From Sphingobium sp. (GTDB lineage: Bacteria; Pseudomonadota; Alphaproteobacteria; Sphingomonadales; Sphingomonadaceae): a stretch of DNA of 35,888 bases. Below the pieces are notes generated by a model that saw only the letters and a program-made list of their open reading frames with translations, was not told where the DNA came from and did no database searches. Positions 24,708 to 33,800 of this stretch are shown in pieces. The DNA lies in assembly GCA_017984895.1 (NCBI GenBank), contig JAGNYO010000023.1, forward strand, positions 1 to 35,888, in the 5' to 3' direction. Position 1 is the stretch's first letter. Each line of letters opens with the position of its first letter. A program made the translations under genes and the position numbers.

Positions 24708-24764
24708 GATCGTTCTCCTCATGCAGAGAAGATGCGCACGGACGTTTGATTGCACAAATTGATT

Positions 24765-24796
24765 CTATCAGACATTATTGATAGTATCAGACTATC
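24765..24796. promoter_or_regulatory. Candidate LysR/OxyR-type operator
   Basis: CTATCA (24765-24770), TGATAG (24779-24784) and CTATC (24792-24796) form two overlapping dyads. The right one is ATAG-N7-CTAT (24781-24795), the spacing of an OxyR half-operator and a T-N11-A LTTR box. It sits just before the regulator's Shine-Dalgarno, which suggests autorepression plus control of the divergent DUF465-terC unit. Confidence 0.6.
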
Positions 24797-24806
24797 AAGG
24801 AGGCTT

Positions 24807-25721
24807 ATGAGCACCCTGCGCCAGTTAACCTATCTCGTCGCCTTGGCGGATTACCGCAATTTTCGACGCGCCGCCGATGCGGTAAATATTTCCCAGCCGA
24901 CGCTGAGCCAGCAATTGCGCGCTCTGGAAGCCCGGCTGGGGGTTACGCTGGTCGAACGTAATGAAAGCCCGGTGCAACTGACACCCGTTGGCCGCGAAGT
25001 TGTGGCGCGCGCCCGCAAGATCCTGGTGGATGTGCGGGATGTCGAAGATATGTCTGCCCGCGCGGGCGCCGGAATGAGCGGCACGATCCGCTTTGGCGTG
25101 ACGCCGACGTTGGGGCCGTATCTGATGGCCGGGATCGTCGCCTCCCTGCACCGCCGCTTTCCCGACATAAGGCTCTACGTGCGCGAGGGCATCCCCGACG
25201 AGCAGGCGCGGGAGCTGGCGCGCGGCGACCTCGATATGATGCTCTCGCCCCTGCCCCTCTCAGGCAGCAACCTGCACATCGAGCCGCTGTTCCGTGAGCC
25301 GCTGCACATTGTTTCGCCGCCCGAGCATCGCGTCGCGCAAGCCGCGCTGGTGCGCAGGGAGGATCTCGCCGGCGCAGGCTTCCTCAGCATGGACCGCCGC
25401 CATCACGCGCATCGTCAGGTGCGGGATATCTGCACGGAGCTGGGCGCGGAGCTGCTGGAGGATTATGAAGGCACCAGTCTCGACAGCTTGCGGCAGATGT
25501 GCGGCTCAGGCCTCGGCTTTGCTATATTGCCGGAGTTGTATCTGCGGTCCGAAGTGGGTGGAGAGGACATGGTCAAGCGTCTCGCCCTGACGGACTGGAG
25601 CGCGAGCCGCTCGATCGCGGCAGTATGGAGAGAGGGCGCCGCCTATACCGCCAGCTACCAGACTATCGCGGACATGATCGCCACCGCAGCACATGAAATC
25701 CTCGGTGTGCCAATGGCATAG
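24807..25721 (+). CDS. OxyR-like LysR regulator without the peroxidatic cysteine
   Basis: The 304-residue LTTR has an N-terminal HTH (RRAADAVNISQPTLSQQLRALE, about 20-41) and an OxyR-like sensing domain. In the sensing loop Cys209 lines up with E. coli OxyR Cys208 (RDICTELG against the family form DxCxxxG), and TSLDSLRQMCGSGLG matches the TSLETLRNMVAAG segment. Counting back nine residues, the peroxidatic Cys199 position is His200 (RRHHAHR). An extra Cys232 is present. It may therefore sense something other than hydrogen peroxide, or do so by different chemistry. The start at 24807 follows AAGGAGG closely. It is divergent from DUF465-zinc ribbon-terC. Confidence 0.88.
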   Translation: MSTLRQLTYLVALADYRNFRRAADAVNISQPTLSQQLRALEARLGVTLVERNESPVQLTPVGREVVARARKILVDVRDVEDMSARAGAGMSGTIRFGVTPTLGPYLMAGIVASLHRRFPDIRLYVREGIPDEQARELARGDLDMMLSPLPLSGSNLHIEPLFREPLHIVSPPEHRVAQAALVRREDLAGAGFLSMDRRHHAHRQVRDICTELGAELLEDYEGTSLDSLRQMCGSGLGFAILPELYLRSEVGGEDMVKRLALTDWSASRSIAAVWREGAAYTASYQTIADMIATAAHEILGVPMA

Positions 25722-25845: not shown

Positions 25846-26340
25846 CTAGATAATATAGCGCAAAGTTATATCGACCTGCACAGAGGCACGCATCGGCATC
25901 ATGGCCTCTTCGAAGTGCGGCGCGCGGGGCCTGAGGGGAGGATTGCGGGAAAACCCGAAACCTTCGCGCGGGATACCGAGCAGCATGTCGAGCTTGCCAT
26001 TGCCATTGCCATCGTGAAACACTCCGATGGCGTATGTGCCCGCGGGGATATCCACGAACCGCACGAAAGCCCGCCCTTTCTCGATCGACAAGGTTGCAGA
26101 GCGCAACGCTCTTTTGCCGCAATCGGGGAAACCTGCGTCGGGCGGGCAGACCATTAACCGGACCACCCCTTTGACGGAGCGTGCACCGTGAATGACTACA
26201 TCGAGCGTCGCCGTATCGGAGGCGCTATGTTCGGCGCGGCCCGGTGTCGCCGCGAGAAAAAGCGCCAAGCCCGTGATCGGTGCGGCACAGACGATCCCAT
26301 ATGCGAAAATAGAGGCCATAATTGCAGTTATACCTGTCAT
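25846..26340 (-). CDS. DUF2141 exported protein
   Basis: This protein of about 164 residues has a hydrophobic signal region ending near PGRAEH. The DUF2141 domain follows, with the hallmark VFHDGNGNGKLDMLLGIPREGFGFS (an acidic, calcium-like loop then the G-x-P-x-E-G-F-S pattern) and paired Cys (VCPPDAGFPDC). The function of this exported beta-rich family is not established. The start (ATG 26340 or 26319) lies inside the 3' end of the hydroxylase gene, so the two frames overlap by 95-116 bp on one strand with no good Shine-Dalgarno. That suggests coupled translation. The pairing with a sterol-desaturase-type gene at a carotenoid locus suggests a role in xanthophyll placement or modification, which is inference. 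Confidence 0.8.
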   Translation of the reverse strand: MTGITAIMASIFAYGIVCAAPITGLALFLAATPGRAEHSASDTATLDVVIHGARSVKGVVRLMVCPPDAGFPDCGKRALRSATLSIEKGRAFVRFVDIPAGTYAIGVFHDGNGNGKLDMLLGIPREGFGFSRNPPLRPRAPHFEEAMMPMRASVQVDITLRYII

Positions 26341-26980
26341 GATGGAGCTGATGATGGGTCGCAGTTATCAGCCATTTTCCCGCCCTGCCCCGCACCAGCC
26401 CGGTGGGAAACAGCTCCCAGCCCATATGGTTGGTCACGCCCATGACCGTCATCACCAGCAGCACGGCAAGAACGACGCCTATGTGCAGCGGCAGGACAAA
26501 AACCAGTGCGGGAATTACAAACGCCCCGCTGAGCGCCTCGAACGGATGAAAGCTCATCGCGGCCCATGCGGTCGGTGGCCTGCTTGCATGATGCACGGCA
26601 TGCACAAGGCGGAAAAGTGCCGGGTGATGCATCAGCCGGTGGGTCCAGTAGAACCAGCTATCATGGATCAGCAGGCACAGCAGGAACGAGACGGGAAGCC
26701 ACCACAGCGGATAGGCTTCGGCATCCTGATAGATCCGGGTCCAGCCGCGCGCCTGCCAGCCCCATGCAACGACCCCTGCCGGCAAGCCATATATTGCGGC
26801 GCTGAGCAGCGACCAGCCGATCTCCCGGCGGATCTGATCGCGCAGACCCGTGTGCAGCCCCGGCTTCCGCTTTTCTCCCCACCAGGCGAACAGGCCACTG
26901 GTCGCAAGATAACGCATCGCGACAATGCCGATCATCAGCAGGGTTGCTATTGCTACAGCGAAACCATCATCCCATTGCAT
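26225..26980 (-). CDS. Sterol desaturase / fatty-acid-hydroxylase family di-iron protein
   Basis: The 251-residue membrane protein has four or so helices and the histidine clusters of the superfamily. These are HDSWFYWTHRLMHH (His106, His114, His118-119), HAVHH (127-131), a distal His185 and ATHHQLHH (209-214). It is a membrane di-iron oxygenase that hydroxylates or desaturates a lipid substrate. It diverges from crtY with only 41 bp between, in a locus that encodes zeaxanthin synthesis. A carotenoid ring hydroxylase acting in addition to CrtZ (for example at C2, as in nostoxanthin producers) is a reasonable hypothesis. A sterol or hopanoid or fatty-acid role is equally compatible with the motifs. 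Confidence 0.85.
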   Translation of the reverse strand: MQWDDGFAVAIATLLMIGIVAMRYLATSGLFAWWGEKRKPGLHTGLRDQIRREIGWSLLSAAIYGLPAGVVAWGWQARGWTRIYQDAEAYPLWWLPVSFLLCLLIHDSWFYWTHRLMHHPALFRLVHAVHHASRPPTAWAAMSFHPFEALSGAFVIPALVFVLPLHIGVVLAVLLVMTVMGVTNHMGWELFPTGLVRGRAGKWLITATHHQLHHDRYNCNYGLYFRIWDRLCRTDHGLGAFSRGDTGPRRT

Positions 26981-27021
26981 CGGGTTGGTTTAACAGCAGT
27001 GCTATGGTAAGGCGAGCGCTC

Positions 27022-28182
27022 ATGACAGCGAACAGGCCCCTCATCATTGTCGGCGGCGGGCTAGCCGGATCGTTAGCGGCGCTGATGCTGGCCGAAAGGC
27101 ACCCGGATCTACCCTTGCTGCTGCTGGAAGCCGGCGAGAGCTTTGGCGGCAATCACACCTGGTCTTTCTTCGATAGCGACGTTCCGCATGCCATGCGCGC
27201 AATAATCACGCAGCTTTCACCTAAGCGCTGGTCAAGGCATAAGGTGCGTTTTCCGGGGCGGGAGCGCGAACTCGCCATGCCCTACAACGCTGTTGCCGCC
27301 CCAGCACTCGATGCGCTGGTTCGCAAGCGGCTGCCCGCTTCGTGCTGGCGGCTCGGCGCAGCGGTCGGGCAAATCGCGCCAGACAAAGTGACGCTCAGAT
27401 CGGGCGAAGAGATTGCCGGGTGCGGGATAATCGACGCGCGTGGCCCGGATGGGCCGATGCCTGGGCTGGACCTTGGCTGGCAGAAATTTGTCGGTGTCGA
27501 GTTTGAGGCACAGGTTCCAGACCCTGACTGCGCCACGATAATGGACGCGACCGTGCGACAGATAGACGGCTACCGCTTTGTTTATGTCCTGCCGCTCGCC
27601 CACAACAGGGTACTGGTGGAGGATACCTATTATAGCGACGGTTCAGCCCTTGACGCTGAATTAGTGGCAGAGCGGGTGCGCGCCATCGCCGCTGAAAGAG
27701 GCTTGGGGGGCGAGGAACTGCGGCGGGAGCAAGGTGTGCTGCCTATCCTGATCGACGGCGACCCGGATATTTTCTGGCCGCTCAACGATCCGGTCGCGCG
27801 GCTGGGCCTGCGCGGCGGCTTTTTCCACCCCACCACGGGCTATTCCTTTTCGCTGGCGCTACGCATGGCCGATCGCCTCTCCAGCCTGCCAGGGAAATTC
27901 GACGGAGCCATGCTTGCCCAGTGGACACGCGCGCAATTCCTGTTGCATTGGCATGAGGGACGCTATTTTCGGCTGTTGAACCGCATGCTGTTTCACGCCG
28001 CCGCGCCGGAGGAGCGTTATCGCATTTTCCAGCACTTCTATCGGCTGGCGTCCGATCTGATCGGCCGATTTTATGCCGGGCGGCTGACTCCGCGAGACAA
28101 GCTGCGCATTCTCACTGGCCGGCCGCCGGTATCCGTCGTCAAGGCAGTGGGTGTCCTGCTTGGCCGGGGCGCGGCGCGATGA
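27022..28182 (+). CDS. crtY: Lycopene beta-cyclase
   Basis: CrtY cyclises both ends of lycopene to give beta-carotene. The 386-residue protein has the N-terminal Rossmann motif VGGGLAGSLAAL (about 10-21), the GGNHTWSFFD segment typical of bacterial CrtY, and the C-terminal GGFFHPTTGYSFSLALRMAD signature. Length fits the family. The ATG at 27022 is chosen over the in-frame ATGs at 26944 and 27004 because the FAD motif then falls at its usual place and AAGGCGAG lies just upstream. It overlaps crtB by ATGA (28179-28182), so the two are translationally coupled. The membrane-associated product feeds CrtZ. Confidence 0.95.
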   Translation: MTANRPLIIVGGGLAGSLAALMLAERHPDLPLLLLEAGESFGGNHTWSFFDSDVPHAMRAIITQLSPKRWSRHKVRFPGRERELAMPYNAVAAPALDALVRKRLPASCWRLGAAVGQIAPDKVTLRSGEEIAGCGIIDARGPDGPMPGLDLGWQKFVGVEFEAQVPDPDCATIMDATVRQIDGYRFVYVLPLAHNRVLVEDTYYSDGSALDAELVAERVRAIAAERGLGGEELRREQGVLPILIDGDPDIFWPLNDPVARLGLRGGFFHPTTGYSFSLALRMADRLSSLPGKFDGAMLAQWTRAQFLLHWHEGRYFRLLNRMLFHAAAPEERYRIFQHFYRLASDLIGRFYAGRLTPRDKLRILTGRPPVSVVKAVGVLLGRGAAR

Positions 28183-29141
28183 CAGTTTGCCCTATGCCCG
28201 ATCGCACGGCGCTTGTTGCCGCTGCGGCGGAAACCATCGCGCGCGGATCGCAGAGCTTTACCGCCGCCAGCAGGCTGTTCGCTCCGGAAACGCGGGATCG
28301 CGCCTGGCTGCTCTATGCCTGGTGCCGCGCCGCAGATGACATTACCGATGGTCAGGAACTGGGGCATGGCGCGCGCGCGCCGCACGATCCATCCGCCGCG
28401 CAAGCCCGGCTCGCGGCCCTGACCCAAACGGCGTTGGACGACGACACAGAGGTGCCGCTGCCTTTTGCCGCCTTGCGTGCGGTGGTGCGCGAAACGGGCA
28501 TGCCGCGCTATCTTCTCGACGACCATCTGGCGGGATTCGCGCTGGATGCAGCGGACTGGAGGCCGAGGCAAGAGGATGACCTGCTGCGCTACTGCTATCA
28601 TGTTGCGGGATCGGTCGGTTGCATGATGGCGGTCGTTATGGGCGTCGATTCGGCGGATGAGGACACGCTTGACCGTGCCTGCGATCTGGGCCTCGCCTTC
28701 CAGCTCGCCAATATCGCACGGGATATCGTGCCCGATGCGCAGATGGGGCGCTGTTATATCCCGGCGCGCTGGCTCGAAGAGTTCGGCCTCGGAGAAACGA
28801 CGCTCACCGACCCCGCCGCCAGGCCAGCGCTGGCAGCAGTGGCGGCGCGGCTGGTGACATTGGCCCAGCCCTATCGCGCCTCGGCGAGGATCGGTGCTGC
28901 GCGCCTGCCCGCCCGCTCACGCCTGGCTGTGCTGGCGGCCGACGCCATCTATGGCGCGATTGGCGAGACAGTGATGCACAAGGGGCAACGCGCCTGGGAC
29001 CAGCGGGTGCGGGTCGGCGCATGGGGCAAGCTGGGCCATCTTGCCATGGCCATGCTGCGCAGCATGAGGCAACCGCCCGCGCAACCGCGCATGGGGTTGT
29101 GGACCCGTCCCCGTCAATCCGTATGCCCCGTCAATCGGTAG
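28179..29141 (+). CDS. crtB: Phytoene synthase
   Basis: CrtB joins two GGPP molecules head to head to form phytoene, the first committed carotenoid step. The 320-residue protein has the first Asp-rich motif DDITD (53-57), the YCYHVAGSVG segment (about 138-147) and the second motif NIARDIVPD (178-186), followed by GRCYIP. All are intact. The start overlaps the crtY stop. The 3' end overlaps the convergent crtZ by 11 bp, so the cluster has no spacer between its two operons. GGPP would come from the CrtE half of the fusion protein encoded at 31221. Confidence 0.95.
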   Translation: MTVCPMPDRTALVAAAAETIARGSQSFTAASRLFAPETRDRAWLLYAWCRAADDITDGQELGHGARAPHDPSAAQARLAALTQTALDDDTEVPLPFAALRAVVRETGMPRYLLDDHLAGFALDAADWRPRQEDDLLRYCYHVAGSVGCMMAVVMGVDSADEDTLDRACDLGLAFQLANIARDIVPDAQMGRCYIPARWLEEFGLGETTLTDPAARPALAAVAARLVTLAQPYRASARIGAARLPARSRLAVLAADAIYGAIGETVMHKGQRAWDQRVRVGAWGKLGHLAMAMLRSMRQPPAQPRMGLWTRPRQSVCPVNR

Positions 29142-29628
29142 GCAAAACCGGTTCGCGAAACTGAGCAACCCCTGAAGCGCGCAACTGCGCCTTCAATCGT
29201 TCCACAGGCGGGGCATACAGGAAACCGAAGCTCACCGTGCCGCGCTTGCTTTCGACCGCGTGGTGCAACCTATGTGCCTGGACGATGCGCTTGAAATAAG
29301 CCGAGCGCGGGACGATACGGTGCGGGATGCGGCGGTGGACGATCCAGTCATGAAAGCCGAAATAGATAGCACCATAGGCGGCAATGCCTGCGCCGACTGC
29401 GGTGGCCTCGCTGCCCCATCCGGCCTGGACTCCGCCATAGATCAGAACAATGGAAGGCACCGCAAAGACCATCGCATAGAGGTCATTCCATTCAAATGGT
29501 CCGCTGCGGGCGCGATGGTGGCTAGCGTGAAGAAACCAGCCTGGCCCATGCATCACCCAGCGATGCATCACATAGGCGAACAGTTCCATTGCCGCGACTG
29601 TGCCGAAAAACAGAAAGATGAGCATCAT
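29131..29628 (-). CDS. crtZ: Beta-carotene 3-hydroxylase
   Basis: CrtZ hydroxylates the C3 positions of beta-carotene to give beta-cryptoxanthin and zeaxanthin. The 165-residue membrane di-iron protein shows the family histidine clusters MHRWVMH (22-27), HASHH (34-38), HDWIVHRRIPHR and HRLHH, with helices between them. Length is typical of bacterial CrtZ. Its ATG overlaps the crtI stop (ATGA), so it is the second gene of a crtI-crtZ operon. It converges with crtB, sharing 11 bp of 3' sequence. No ketolase (crtW) is seen nearby, so hydroxylated rather than ketolated products are expected. Confidence 0.94.
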   Translation of the reverse strand: MMLIFLFFGTVAAMELFAYVMHRWVMHGPGWFLHASHHRARSGPFEWNDLYAMVFAVPSIVLIYGGVQAGWGSEATAVGAGIAAYGAIYFGFHDWIVHRRIPHRIVPRSAYFKRIVQAHRLHHAVESKRGTVSFGFLYAPPVERLKAQLRASGVAQFREPVLPTD

Positions 29629-31091
29629 GGCAGCATCAGGCTGGCTGTCGCCTTGGCGCTGCCCACCACGCCCGGAATGCCCGCTCCCGGATGCGTTCCT
29701 GCCCCCACGAAATAGAGATTGGCGAAGTGGTCATCGCGGTTATGGGCGCGAAACCAGGCGCTCTGTGTCAGCAATGGTTCCAGGCTGAAAGCACTGCCCA
29801 GATGGGCGCCCAGATCCCCGGCGAAGTCCTGCGGGGTGTAATGAAAGCAGGTATCCAGCCGCTCGAACAGATCCGGAATTAGCATGTCGCGCACACGCTC
29901 CAACACCAGCTGCCGATAACGCGGCCCCTCCTCCGCCCAGTCGACCGGCGCCTTGCCGAGATGGGGCACCGGGGCGAGCGCGTAGAAAGCAGACTTTCCG
30001 GGCGGGGCCATGTCCGGGTCGGTGGCGCTGGGGTGGTGGAGATAGAGCGAGGGATCAGCCGCCAGTCGCCCATGGCGATAGATGTCGTCCAGTAACGGTC
30101 CATAACGGTCCGAAAACAGAATCGAGTGATGGGCAACGTCCGGGAAACTGCCTTCGAGTCCGAAGTGCACCACGAACAGGCTCGGGGAAAAACGCTTGCG
30201 CTTGAGCGCACGTACGCGCCGGGCAGCATAAGCTGATCCCTCGATCAAGCCATAGCTGTGCACAAGGTCGCCATTGCTGGCGATCATATCCGCCCGCAGC
30301 GCACGGCCCGAAGCGGTGACAACGCCGGTCACGCGATCGCCCTGATGCTCGATCCGGCGCACGGCATCCCCTAGCACGAGGGTGCCGCCGAGCCGCTCGA
30401 ACAGCGCGACCATGCCGCTGACCAGCGCGCTTGTGCCTCCCTTGGCGAACCATACGCCGCCGGTTTTTTCCAGATGATGGATCAACGCATAGATGCTGCT
30501 GGTCTGCATCGGGTTGCCGCCGACCAGAAGGGTGTGGAACGATAGTGCCTGCCGCAGCTTTTCATTGCGCACGAAGCTGGAAACGAGATCATAGACCGAG
30601 CGCCATGCCTGATGCTTCATCAGCGCGGGGGCCGCGCGGATCATGCTCGAAAAATGCAGGAACGGCACCGCCCCCAGCTTGACATACCCCTCCTGATAGA
30701 CACTGCGTGAATAGGTGAGAAACCGGGCATAGCCCTCGACATCCGCCGGATCGAGCTTGGCGATTTCCGCGTTGAGGCTGGCGTCGTCGTTCGAATAATC
30801 GAAGGCAGTGCCGTCATTCCACAACAGGCGATAGAAAGGCTGAACCGGCAGCAAGGCGACATCTTCCACCATCGCGCTTCCGGATAAAGTCCATAATTCC
30901 TCAAGACAGGCGGGATCGGTGATGACCGTGGGACCGGCGTCGAAGCTGTAGCCCTGCTCCTTCCACACATACGCCCTGCCGCCGGGGCGATCCCGCGCCT
31001 CGATAACGGTCGTGGCAATGCCGGCGCTTTGCAAGCGGATGGCGAGCGACAATCCGCCAAATCCTGATCCTATGACGATGGCGGTAGACAT
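29625..31091 (-). CDS. crtI: Phytoene desaturase (lycopene-forming)
   Basis: CrtI introduces four double bonds into phytoene to make lycopene, with FAD as cofactor. The 488-residue protein starts STAIVIGSGFGGLSLAIRLQ (GxGxxG) and continues with RPGGRAYVWKEQGYSFDAGPT. It closes with the family C-terminal motif NLYFVGAGTHPGAGIPGVVGSAKA. The start at 31091 is preferred over an upstream in-frame ATG at 31154 because the FAD motif should lie at the extreme N-terminus. It forms an operon with crtZ and diverges from the ispH-crtE fusion across a 129-bp gap, so both transcripts can share regulation. Confidence 0.95.
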   Translation of the reverse strand: MSTAIVIGSGFGGLSLAIRLQSAGIATTVIEARDRPGGRAYVWKEQGYSFDAGPTVITDPACLEELWTLSGSAMVEDVALLPVQPFYRLLWNDGTAFDYSNDDASLNAEIAKLDPADVEGYARFLTYSRSVYQEGYVKLGAVPFLHFSSMIRAAPALMKHQAWRSVYDLVSSFVRNEKLRQALSFHTLLVGGNPMQTSSIYALIHHLEKTGGVWFAKGGTSALVSGMVALFERLGGTLVLGDAVRRIEHQGDRVTGVVTASGRALRADMIASNGDLVHSYGLIEGSAYAARRVRALKRKRFSPSLFVVHFGLEGSFPDVAHHSILFSDRYGPLLDDIYRHGRLAADPSLYLHHPSATDPDMAPPGKSAFYALAPVPHLGKAPVDWAEEGPRYRQLVLERVRDMLIPDLFERLDTCFHYTPQDFAGDLGAHLGSAFSLEPLLTQSAWFRAHNRDDHFANLYFVGAGTHPGAGIPGVVGSAKATASLMLP

Positions 31092-31220
31092 GAAAAAAGG
31101 GTCCAGCAGGATTTCGGGATAGTGCAAGCAGATATTGCGCCCAATGGTGAGCACAACCTGTCCCTAGGTGCGTATTAATAGTGGCATTGCAACCCTCTAT
31201 ATGAGAACTTGAGGCATAAT
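31092..31220. promoter_or_regulatory. Divergent promoter of crtI-crtZ and the ispH-crtE fusion
   Basis: This 129-bp gap is the only promoter space for both the desaturase/hydroxylase operon and the fusion gene. It is fairly A+T rich near 31170-31210 (CGTATTAATAGTGGCATTGCAA, then CTATAT), where a rightward promoter could lie. No perfect dyad or known light-regulator site was recognised. TTGAGG just before 31215 serves as the Shine-Dalgarno of the fusion gene. Confidence 0.45.
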
Positions 31221-33095
31221 ATGGGATCACGTTTATTCTTAGCAGGCTCTGGCACAGCCGAAAAGGCGCCGCGCCGCGTGTTGCTGGCTAATCCGCGCGG
31301 CTTCTGCGCAGGTGTTGACCGGGCAATAAAGGCTGTGGAACAAGCGATAGATACCTATGGCGCGCCTGTCTATGTGCGCCGCGCCATTGTCCACAATCGC
31401 GGCGTGGTGGAACGTCTCGAACATATGGGCGCTATATTCGTGCAAGAGCTGGACACGATTCCGGAAGGAGCCATCGCGATCCTGTCCGCCCATGGCAGTG
31501 CGCGGGTCGTGAAAAGCGATGCGCAGCATCGTGGGCTGCGGGTGATAGACGCGATATGCCCGCTGGTAGCAAAGGTTCATGCCGAGGTCGAAGCCTGGTA
31601 TCGCGCCGGGCGGCATGTGCTGTTGATCGGCCATCAGGGTCACCCCGAGATTGTGGGCACCTTGGGCCAGCTTCCGGCCGGGGCCATTTCAGTCATCTCT
31701 CAGCCCCAGGATCTCGATGTGCTGGATCTGGGCCGCAACACTGCTGTTGCCTTTGCGGTGCAGACGACTTTCTCCGTTCGCGATGCGGACGACATGATCG
31801 GCGCGATCCGTGCGCGCTTTGATGATGTCGCCGCACCGCGGGCCAGCGATATCTGCTACGCCACCTCCAACCGTCAGTCCGCGATAGAAGTGATCGCCCG
31901 CGAGGCGGACGTGGTGCTGGTGATCGGCGACGGCATGTCCTCCAACGCCCGCCGCCTGGTGGAGGTTGCGCAGGGCGCGGGTTGCCCAACCGCAATACTG
32001 GTGCAGGACGTGACGGAAGTGCCCTGGGGTATCGTCAGTCAGGCGACGGTGATCGGGCTGACTGCTGCCGCTTCGACACCCGAAAGCACGGTGCGCAGCG
32101 TGTGCGATGCGCTTGCCAATGCCGGGTTCCGGCTGGAGGAAACGGAAGGCGCGCGCGAGCGAGTCCGGTTCCGCCCGGTTTCTCTTCAGCCATTAGATCC
32201 CGACAGGACGGGCACTGCGGCTGAGGACAGGCCTGCACAGGTGCGCCGCGACCTCGATGCCCTGCTCGACCGCGTCATCAAGCCCACTTCCAGCAACGAG
32301 CGGCGACTGACGGAAGCCATGCGCTATGCCGTAATCGGCGGAGGGAAGCGATTTCGCGCTTTGCTGGTGACGACGGTCGCCGATTTGGTGGGCGGCTCCT
32401 ACAGCCATGCGCTCCGGGTCGGCGCGGCCATAGAATGTGTTCATGCGCAGTCGCTGGTTCATGACGACCTGCCCTGCATGGACGATGATGACATGCGCCG
32501 TGGCCAGCCGACCCTGCATCGCAAATTCGACGAAGCGACGGCGGTCCTCGCCGGTGATGCCCTGCTGGCGCTGGCTTTCGAACTGCTGGCCGAGCCGGAA
32601 ACCCATCCTGAGGCCACGGTGCGCTCCCGTCTGGTCCTGTCACTGGCCCGTGCCATCGGGCATGATGGGCTGGCTGGCGGACAGATGATGGACCTCTATC
32701 CCCCCGCACATCCCACCAAAGCCGATCTCTTCGCCTGTGAGAGCCGCAAGACAGGGGCGCTAATCCGCTTTGCAGTCGAGGCCGGCGCTATGTTGGGGGA
32801 ATGCAGCGCCAATGAATTGTCGCTGCTGGTGCGTTTTGCCGAAAATTTGGGCCTGGTATTCCAGATCCGCGACGATATTCTCGATCGTATCGGCGATGCG
32901 GCGGTGGTCGGCAAGGCTCTGGACAAGGATGCCGCGGCGGGCCGCGCCAGCGCGACGAGCTTGCTCGGGATCGAGGGCGCCACGCGGCAGGCGAGCGAGC
33001 TGGAAAGCGCGTGCCATCAGGCACTGGACGCATTGGGGCCCAAAGCAATGCCGCTCCGCGAGCTTGCCCGCTTCGCGGTGAACCGTTTCCACTAG
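31221..33095 (+). CDS. IspH-CrtE fusion: HMBPP reductase joined to prenyl diphosphate synthase
   Basis: This is a single 624-residue frame with two complete enzymes. Residues of about 17-310 are IspH (LytB). They have the three iron-sulfur ligands Cys29 (NPRGFCAGVDRA), Cys113 (DAICPLVAK) and Cys212 (DICYATSNRQ), plus His58, His91, His138, Glu143 and the Ser-Ser-Asn at 240-242. Residues of about 340-624 are a trans-prenyl synthase with GGGKRFR (373-379), the first Asp-rich motif DDLPCMDDDD (415-424) and the second QIRDDILD (548-555). The linker (about 311-340) is Pro/Asp/Arg-rich. IspH makes IPP and DMAPP; the second half would condense them to FPP or GGPP, expected GGPP for crtB. All motifs are intact and no stop lies between the halves. 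ATG 31221 follows a TTGAGG site. Confidence 0.93.
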   Translation: MGSRLFLAGSGTAEKAPRRVLLANPRGFCAGVDRAIKAVEQAIDTYGAPVYVRRAIVHNRGVVERLEHMGAIFVQELDTIPEGAIAILSAHGSARVVKSDAQHRGLRVIDAICPLVAKVHAEVEAWYRAGRHVLLIGHQGHPEIVGTLGQLPAGAISVISQPQDLDVLDLGRNTAVAFAVQTTFSVRDADDMIGAIRARFDDVAAPRASDICYATSNRQSAIEVIAREADVVLVIGDGMSSNARRLVEVAQGAGCPTAILVQDVTEVPWGIVSQATVIGLTAAASTPESTVRSVCDALANAGFRLEETEGARERVRFRPVSLQPLDPDRTGTAAEDRPAQVRRDLDALLDRVIKPTSSNERRLTEAMRYAVIGGGKRFRALLVTTVADLVGGSYSHALRVGAAIECVHAQSLVHDDLPCMDDDDMRRGQPTLHRKFDEATAVLAGDALLALAFELLAEPETHPEATVRSRLVLSLARAIGHDGLAGGQMMDLYPPAHPTKADLFACESRKTGALIRFAVEAGAMLGECSANELSLLVRFAENLGLVFQIRDDILDRIGDAAVVGKALDKDAAAGRASATSLLGIEGATRQASELESACHQALDALGPKAMPLRELARFAVNRFH

Positions 33096-33147
33096 GATCA
33101 GGAGCCTAGTATGGGAAATTTCAGCTTCGGTTCACGGAATCGGGCAT

Positions 33148-33732
33148 TCAGGACCACAGGCCTGATTCGATTGCAATCCGGATCGCTTCCGCATTCGTCC
33201 GCACATCCAGTGAACGCAGCAAGGCGGCGCGATGCATTTTTACAGTGCGTTCCTTGAGGCCAAGCTCGAAAGCGATCTGCTTGTTGAGGCGCCCACGCGC
33301 CAATGCCTCCAGGATTTGCCGCTGACGAGCGGTCAGACCCGCAATCCTGACCCGCGCTTCATGGTGCCGATCGACGCCGCGCAGATCAATGGCAACCTGC
33401 GAACCGAGGAAGTAGCGCAGCGCTCCCGTATCATCAAACAGAGGCGCGATCATCACCGCATTGCGGAACAAGGAGCCATCCTTGCGATAATTGGTGAGTT
33501 CCACCATGGCAGGCTTGCCGGCGGCTACGGCTTGGCGCAAAATGGCGGTCAGTTCCGGCTCCGTATGCTCTCCGCGCAGGAAGCGGCAGTTCTGGCCGAT
33601 GATTTCCGCTCGTGTATAGCCCGTCAGCCGGATGAAAGCCTCGTTGCACGCGATGATAGGATTGTCCGCCAGGCCAGGGTCACTGACCACTGCGGCGATA
33701 CTGCTGTTGGCAATCAGAAATTCCGGGGACAT
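33148..33732 (-). CDS. LOV-LuxR blue-light photoreceptor transcription factor (EL222-like)
   Basis: The 194-residue protein has an N-terminal LOV domain (about 8-120). It carries the photoactive motif GQNCRFLRG with the flavin-adduct Cys49, the flavin-contacting Asn residues in LTNYRKDGSLFRN (Asn81, Asn91) and Gln112 in YFLGSQVAID. A linker helix leads to a LuxR/GerE helix-turn-helix (about 132-194; LTARQRQILEALARG through the recognition helix ERTVKMHRAALLRSL). This is the layout of Erythrobacter EL222, in which blue light frees the HTH to dimerise and activate transcription. It follows the ispH-crtE gene convergently with 52 bp between. GAGG lies about seven bases before the ATG. Light-dependent control of the carotenoid genes is the natural hypothesis; a stress-response role is possible too. 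Confidence 0.93.
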   Translation of the reverse strand: MSPEFLIANSSIAAVVSDPGLADNPIIACNEAFIRLTGYTRAEIIGQNCRFLRGEHTEPELTAILRQAVAAGKPAMVELTNYRKDGSLFRNAVMIAPLFDDTGALRYFLGSQVAIDLRGVDRHHEARVRIAGLTARQRQILEALARGRLNKQIAFELGLKERTVKMHRAALLRSLDVRTNAEAIRIAIESGLWS

Positions 33733-33783
33733 ACTGGCGCCTCACCGAGAGGTTGGTTCATCCCGACACCGCACTGCCTAGCA

Positions 33784-33800
33784 AACTGGATTTTCCAGTT
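33784..33800. promoter_or_regulatory. Palindrome in the LOV-HTH/mgtC divergent region
   Basis: AACTGGA-TTT-TCCAGTT is a perfect 7-bp inverted repeat with a 3-base centre. It lies 52 bp upstream of the LOV-HTH start and about 90 bp upstream of the mgtC-like start. It is a candidate dimer-binding site, perhaps for autoregulation by the LOV-HTH protein. Confidence 0.45.

Follow-up and report, generated by a model that had tools for sequence, protein, structure and literature searches.

A predicted fusion of IspH and a prenyl diphosphate synthase encoded in carotenoid gene clusters of Sphingomonadales

One uninterrupted reading frame in a carotenoid gene cluster of a Sphingobium sp. encodes a complete IspH (HMBPP reductase, LYTB) domain followed by a complete prenyl diphosphate synthase domain. 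Sequence comparisons suggest that the product is probably a second, carotenoid-dedicated IspH tethered to a Gln-type synthase, which together would lead from HMBPP to GGPP. The window, i.e. the whole stretch of DNA that was analysed, is 35,888 nucleotides long and includes the features below.

25846-26340, minus strand: DUF2141 protein (Pfam match)
26225-26980, minus strand: FA_hydroxylase-family protein, crtG-like by position only
26944-28182, plus strand: crtY lycopene beta-cyclase (domain matches; true start probably internal)
28179-29141, plus strand: crtB phytoene synthase (Pfam SQS_PSY above cut-off; CrtB model under curated cut-off)
29131-29628, minus strand: putative crtZ (HASHH and HRLHH; no Pfam or NCBIfam match)
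29625-31091, minus strand: phytoene desaturase gene crtI, transcribed away from the fusion (TIGR02734, 648.5 bits; start at ATG 31091)
31153-31178, plus strand: conserved 26-bp element in the divergent crtI/fusion intergenic region (motif common to 13 loci)
31221-33095, plus strand: IspH-prenyl diphosphate synthase fusion gene (ORF translation, 624 aa, no internal stop)
31278-32114, plus strand: IspH (HMBPP reductase, LYTB) domain, residues 20-298 (Pfam match; Cys29, Cys113, Cys212)
32154-32225, plus strand: linker, residues 312-335 (pLDDT <50 in an AlphaFold2 model)
32301-33017, plus strand: prenyl diphosphate synthase domain, residues 361-599 (Pfam match; Gln410, D415, D551)
33148-33732, minus strand: LOV-HTH (PAS and GerE) putative blue-light regulator (full-length EL222 relative)

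The fusion protein and its gene cluster

The initial annotation had described a single IspH-prenyl synthase chain at 31221-33095. The frame encodes 624 aa, and both Pfam domains are complete within it. LYTB scores 271.6 bits against a cut-off of 24.5 (E 8.1e-81), and polyprenyl_synt covers residues 361-599 (E 2.2e-51). In NCBIfam, the fusion lies above the cut-off of the IspH model TIGR00216 (272.9 vs 187.85) and under those of the other IspH models listed (e.g. NF002190, 366.3 vs 389). The assigned start, ATG 31221, agrees with the aligned relatives; the longest ORF opens at TTG 31209.

Active-site residues were mapped by alignment with E. coli IspH, using its residue numbering and roles. Cys29, Cys113 and Cys212 align with their E. 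coli counterparts, as do His58, His91, His141, Glu143, Thr183, Ser240, Ser241, Asn242 and Ser285, in agreement with the three Cys ligands and the active-site His, Glu and Ser/Asn residues previously pointed out. All 13 fusions retain them, except that His91 is replaced by Leu in one locus (L070). The resemblance to E. coli IspH/LytB (3f7t, 3ke8) extends over the whole domain at 45% identity (Foldseek), but the window protein differs in being fused to a prenyl synthase and in grouping separately from housekeeping IspH in the IspH tree. In the synthase half, the two Asp-rich motifs noted in the initial annotation begin at D415 and D551, and the HAQSL sequence starting at residue 408 places Gln410 five positions before the first of them, in agreement with that annotation.

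The fusion gene is located between the divergent crtI and the convergent LOV-HTH gene. With crtI, crtB, crtY and a putative crtZ in the window, its placement inside a carotenoid cluster is confirmed. An excerpt of a published description gives HxxHH and HxLHH as CrtZ motifs and reports crtG adjoining a DUF2141 ORF (PMC5989583). All 14 fusion loci, 13 intact and one interrupted, include crtI, and the gene order differs in one of them (L073). A LysR-type regulator gene (24750-25721) is also found near the carotenoid cluster; its best NCBIfam match is OxyR, under the cut-off of that model.

Distribution and origin of the fusion

The fusion was sought in one genome per species across 84,980 species (best 80 of 584 relatives), in sampled genomes and in plasmids. 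At least 12 other distinct intact fusions were found (L066-L074, L146, L149 in genome G411 and L189 in genome G061), all in Sphingomonadales and 58-74% identical to the window fusion. The domain pair singled out in the initial annotation is thus present elsewhere in the order. L146 is carried by the Sphingobium yanoikuyae plasmid pKN1, where it is annotated as ispH alone. Culturable bearers include Sphingobium sp. DEHP117 and Novosphingobium sp. PhB57, both of which also have the LOV-HTH gene, and Croceibacterium xixiisoli S36. The fusion is rare. Three intact and one interrupted fusion were detected in 94 genomes of the genus and four fusions in 397 genomes of a family sample, and an Alphaproteobacteria sample of 289 genomes gave no full-length match outside the Sphingobium genome itself; the three samples overlap, and this genome is included in each count.

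Pairwise dN/dS could be computed in 6 of 7 pairs for the IspH half (0.07-0.18) and in all 7 for the synthase half (0.05-0.14), and both halves look to be under purifying selection. Over the 24-27 codons of the linker, 4 of 7 pairs gave values of 0.01-0.30, at dS as high as 2.1; the remaining pairs were saturated. A frameshift or assembly artefact at the junction, where the initial annotation had allowed for a hidden stop or frameshift, is ruled out by the at least 12 other intact fusions that cross the junction in frame and by the low dN/dS in both halves.

Three genomes have disrupted or partial forms. The fusion in G478 is broken by a 1,356-base insert that has inverted ends and encodes a frame of 410 codons. 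The copy in G071 stops after about residue 259 and is followed by other reading frames; these inserted or following frames look like transposases. In G182 only the synthase is present, and the synthase tree places it within the fusions, next to L073 (99/95). The fusion is therefore dispensable in these three genomes.

The IspH tree was built from 67 of 101 sequences, including 40 of the 74 labelled housekeeping by default. Thirteen fused and 12 unfused sequences form one clade (100/99), with several long end branches, and 37 other sequences of the family form a separate clade (99/93). Within the former, the 13 fusions and one truncated copy group together (99/87). The IspH half of the fusion falls outside the group of argS-thrB-linked IspH, a linkage checked in 3 of the 37 sequences. 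Among the 12 unfused members of the fusion clade, the sequence fetched around ispH includes crtI, crtB or crtY in seven and a LOV match without any of these three genes in four; in that fetched for the remaining one (G449), neither a crt nor a LOV match was found.

In four genomes (L195, L198, L199, L201), the unfused gene, ispH2, and a synthase gene are separate neighbours in different relative frames, and the candidate start of the synthase overlaps the ispH2 stop or lies no more than 8 bases from it. Because these unfused relatives keep the two as abutting genes, a merger of adjacent ispH2 and synthase genes is the likely and simplest account of the fusion, which probably arose once. The synthase tree was built from 57 of 90 sequences; one of these, L169, labelled housekeeping, is the cluster synthase of G362. 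Synthases of the unfused pairs in G257, G320 and G362 make up a separate clade that lies apart from the fusions, and that of G168 is the only one of the four to group with the fusions (98/95). As three of four lie elsewhere, the merger reading draws mainly on the IspH tree; an exchange of the synthase, or repeated pairings of a synthase with ispH2, may have occurred.

Further arrangements of ispH genes were observed. In L193, L194 and L200, ispH2 is found within crt clusters, and no synthase half was detected beside it. The same holds for L196, where ispH2 adjoins LOV, DUF2141 and a partial hydroxylase match, and for L197, where DUF2141 and LOV matches are the only neighbours. Two genus members, G441 and G331, carry a different second ispH (L157 and L158), which in the IspH tree groups with L076 and L077 outside the two main clades.

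Predicted activity and role of the fusion

The first Asp motif could be read in 108 of 112 frames with a synthase match, and 90 sequences remained after removal of identical copies. Five residues before this motif, all 20 cluster-linked synthases (14 fused and 6 unfused, one of the latter with only ispH2 and LOV neighbours) have Gln, or His in two of them, and 70 of 70 other synthases, including the ispA of the same genome, have Tyr. Loci of the latter lack crtY, crtB, crtI and LOV at E 1e-40, and 63 of the 70 are at least 10 kb in length. One sequence, L172, has no crt gene in its 3.9-kb copy, and the longer copy, L201, includes crt genes. An aromatic residue at this position is characteristic of FPP synthases, and its loss fits a longer product; Gln410 is a departure from that rule.

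The synthase half resembles FPPS/IspA enzymes (Zymomonas 4kkm, E. coli 1rqi) over the whole domain, including both Asp motifs, but differs in having Gln for Tyr, in being fused and in its location in a carotenoid cluster. It shares with CrtE of carotenoid clusters the expected role and the position among crtB, crtI and crtY, but is far under the cut-off of the NCBIfam CrtE GGPP synthase model (NF045685, 229.7 vs 460), and is marginally above that of the FPP synthase model (NF045485, 278.5 vs 275). The best solved relative, 4kkm, is of the Tyr type and its structure is titled FPP/GFPP synthase, so the position before the motif does not by itself decide chain length in this order. The initial annotation had read Gln410 as a sign of a longer product. 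The separation of Gln/His from Tyr types supports this, but GGPP itself, most likely the product of this half, is inferred, since the 4kkm title and the NCBIfam preference for the FPP synthase model bear on it as well. The second, free ispA that the initial annotation had considered is present as a Tyr-type short-chain synthase on another contig of the assembly (C13), and probably continues on contig C89 as one gene.

IspG was found in the Sphingobium genome, hence the MEP pathway likely runs. IspH yields both IPP and DMAPP, and a fused IspH would hand the synthase both of its substrates, which suggests a reason for the pairing. The IspH half would reduce HMBPP to IPP and DMAPP, and the synthase half would join these, most likely to GGPP, which would feed the CrtB encoded in the same cluster. 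Expression would probably be shared with the divergent crtI and may be governed by the EL222-like LOV-HTH protein, and the fusion would give an extra precursor supply for carotenoids. In eight genomes searched for IPP isomerases (six with an intact fusion, one with an interrupted and one with a truncated copy), no match to the type 1 enzyme was found, for which the control matched in 5 of 14 genomes and above the cut-off in 2. For type 2, the only matches were weak and partial, and in none of the eight was there one above the cut-off.

In the AlphaFold2 model, two domains are folded, and they match structures of IspH and FPPS. Confidence is low in the linker and also around the first Asp motif (residues 417-426). 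The model points to a flexible, disordered tether and supports no docked domain arrangement, and it lends no support to the channelling suggested in the initial annotation. That the tether forms a true channel, in which IPP and DMAPP made by the IspH half reach the synthase active site without being released, is attractive in that the steps are consecutive, IspH makes both co-substrates, the fusion is kept in 13 genomes or plasmids and the unfused relatives are neighbouring genes. We nevertheless consider it unlikely, as the monomer model, made from ten sequences, has a pTM of 0.49, places neither the linker nor the two domains relative to each other with confidence, the linker sequence differs among fusions, and equal stoichiometry and co-expression could account for the fusion without channelling.

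The initial annotation had also raised the presence of a free ispH. None was found, the fusion being the only LYTB match in this assembly, which has a listed completeness of 100%. At face value, this would make the fusion the sole IspH, serving all isoprenoid synthesis after loss of the housekeeping gene. However, in all three relatives examined (G464, G411, G478), housekeeping ispH shares a block with argS, thrB and rnhA, and this block was likewise not found. A 19.9-kb DNA query of the block matched the Sphingobium genome over scpA-nagZ on contig C41, which ends 1,315 bases past nagZ, and the part with argS, thrB and rnhA had no match in this genome. A search for the ArgS family, which succeeded in all 14 controls, gave no match in this genome either; its matches in the three relatives are partial, over about 60-68 positions. 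A joined ArgS-ThrB-RnhA query, which was without a run on a positive genome, also gave nothing in this genome. As argS, which is essential, is near ispH in the relatives and was not found in the assembly, the block is likely missing from the assembly and the free ispH is probably with it in the gap. A second, separate IspH match was moreover present in six of six other fusion-bearing genomes examined. The fusion as sole IspH was consequently not accepted and is regarded as improbable. Beside nagZ on C41 (L217, C41:1-9000), a different, PEP-CTERM-like gene was observed where relatives carry a SPOR-like gene.

Least probable of all, and very much so, is a degenerate or regulatory leftover IspH beside a working synthase, for which the lone synthase of G182, the cut copy of G071, the His91 replacement in L070 and the long end branches would speak, since apart from that His91 the Cys ligands and other checked residues are invariant in 13 of 13 fusions and dN/dS in the IspH half is low. 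A carotenoid-dedicated second IspH tethered to its synthase remains the preferred reading.

Possible light control and relation to known systems

The neighbouring LOV-HTH protein matches EL222 (8a5r) over its full length (E 5.4e-56), with PAS and GerE domains, and includes GQNCRFLRG, presumably the LOV-domain Cys motif. A full-length LOV match adjoins the fusion in 10 of 14 fusion loci and a partial match in L071; no LOV gene was found near the fusion in L149, L073 and L189. In the 12 loci from which its motif was built, and also in L152, which did not contribute to it, the 26-bp element is the top motif match between crtI and the fusion. Scored with each locus left out, the window copy reaches 24.0 and the others 26.1-34.0; in 100 base-shuffled windows the maximum averaged 11.3 and never exceeded 21.5. 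The element was not found in L189 and L073, both also without a neighbouring LOV gene, and is present in L149 although no LOV gene was found nearby. A sigma-70 scan of 31000-33800 gave one promoter-like site, against a shuffle mean of 1.0.

An excerpt of a published study gives the EL222 binding consensus as RGNCYWWRGNCY (PMC10521638). Between crtI and the fusion in the window, the best match to RGNCYWWRGNCY has 2 mismatches and was equalled by 47 of 60 shuffles. The best among the 13 crtI/fusion regions, in L071, has 1 mismatch and was equalled by 11 of 60; at spacer 5, L071 alone has a full match, equalled by 6 of 60. The 26-bp element does not match the consensus. Control through the published EL222 site was thus rejected, the window being no better than shuffles with spacers 3, 4 and 5 included. 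The regulator is like EL222 in its full length, but the published consensus is unmatched and its targets here are presumptive. Given the EL222-like LOV-HTH gene and the conserved upstream element, light control of the fusion and crtI by this protein is plausible, and the locus is a possible natural target context for an EL222-family photoreceptor.

A fuller scheme, offered tentatively, would be a light-inducible terminal branch of the MEP pathway reserved for carotenoids. There would be no recognisable isomerase, one chain would lead from HMBPP to GGPP with IspH setting the DMAPP:IPP ratio, crtI would be controlled together with the fusion by the EL222-family protein, and tethering would partly insulate this branch from the housekeeping pool.

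The initial annotation had held IspH to be normally a stand-alone enzyme, which stands apart from one other fusion in NCBIfam, IspH with ribosomal protein S1 (NF000907). In that fusion, IspH is likewise the N-terminal part of a two-part chain, but the partner is a ribosomal protein and not a pathway enzyme. Among the matches listed in a search of literature titles and abstract openings, with subscription journals and preprints mostly outside its coverage, no description of an IspH-prenyl synthase fusion was found.

This gene family unites, in nature, the step that yields both isoprenoid building blocks with the step that joins them, and unfused neighbours persist in relatives. Pathway engineers build such enzyme tethering by hand. 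The fusion opens the questions of an IspH paralogue dedicated to pigment supply, of tethering as an aid to precursor flux, and of which genes are under an EL222-family photoreceptor in a natural setting.
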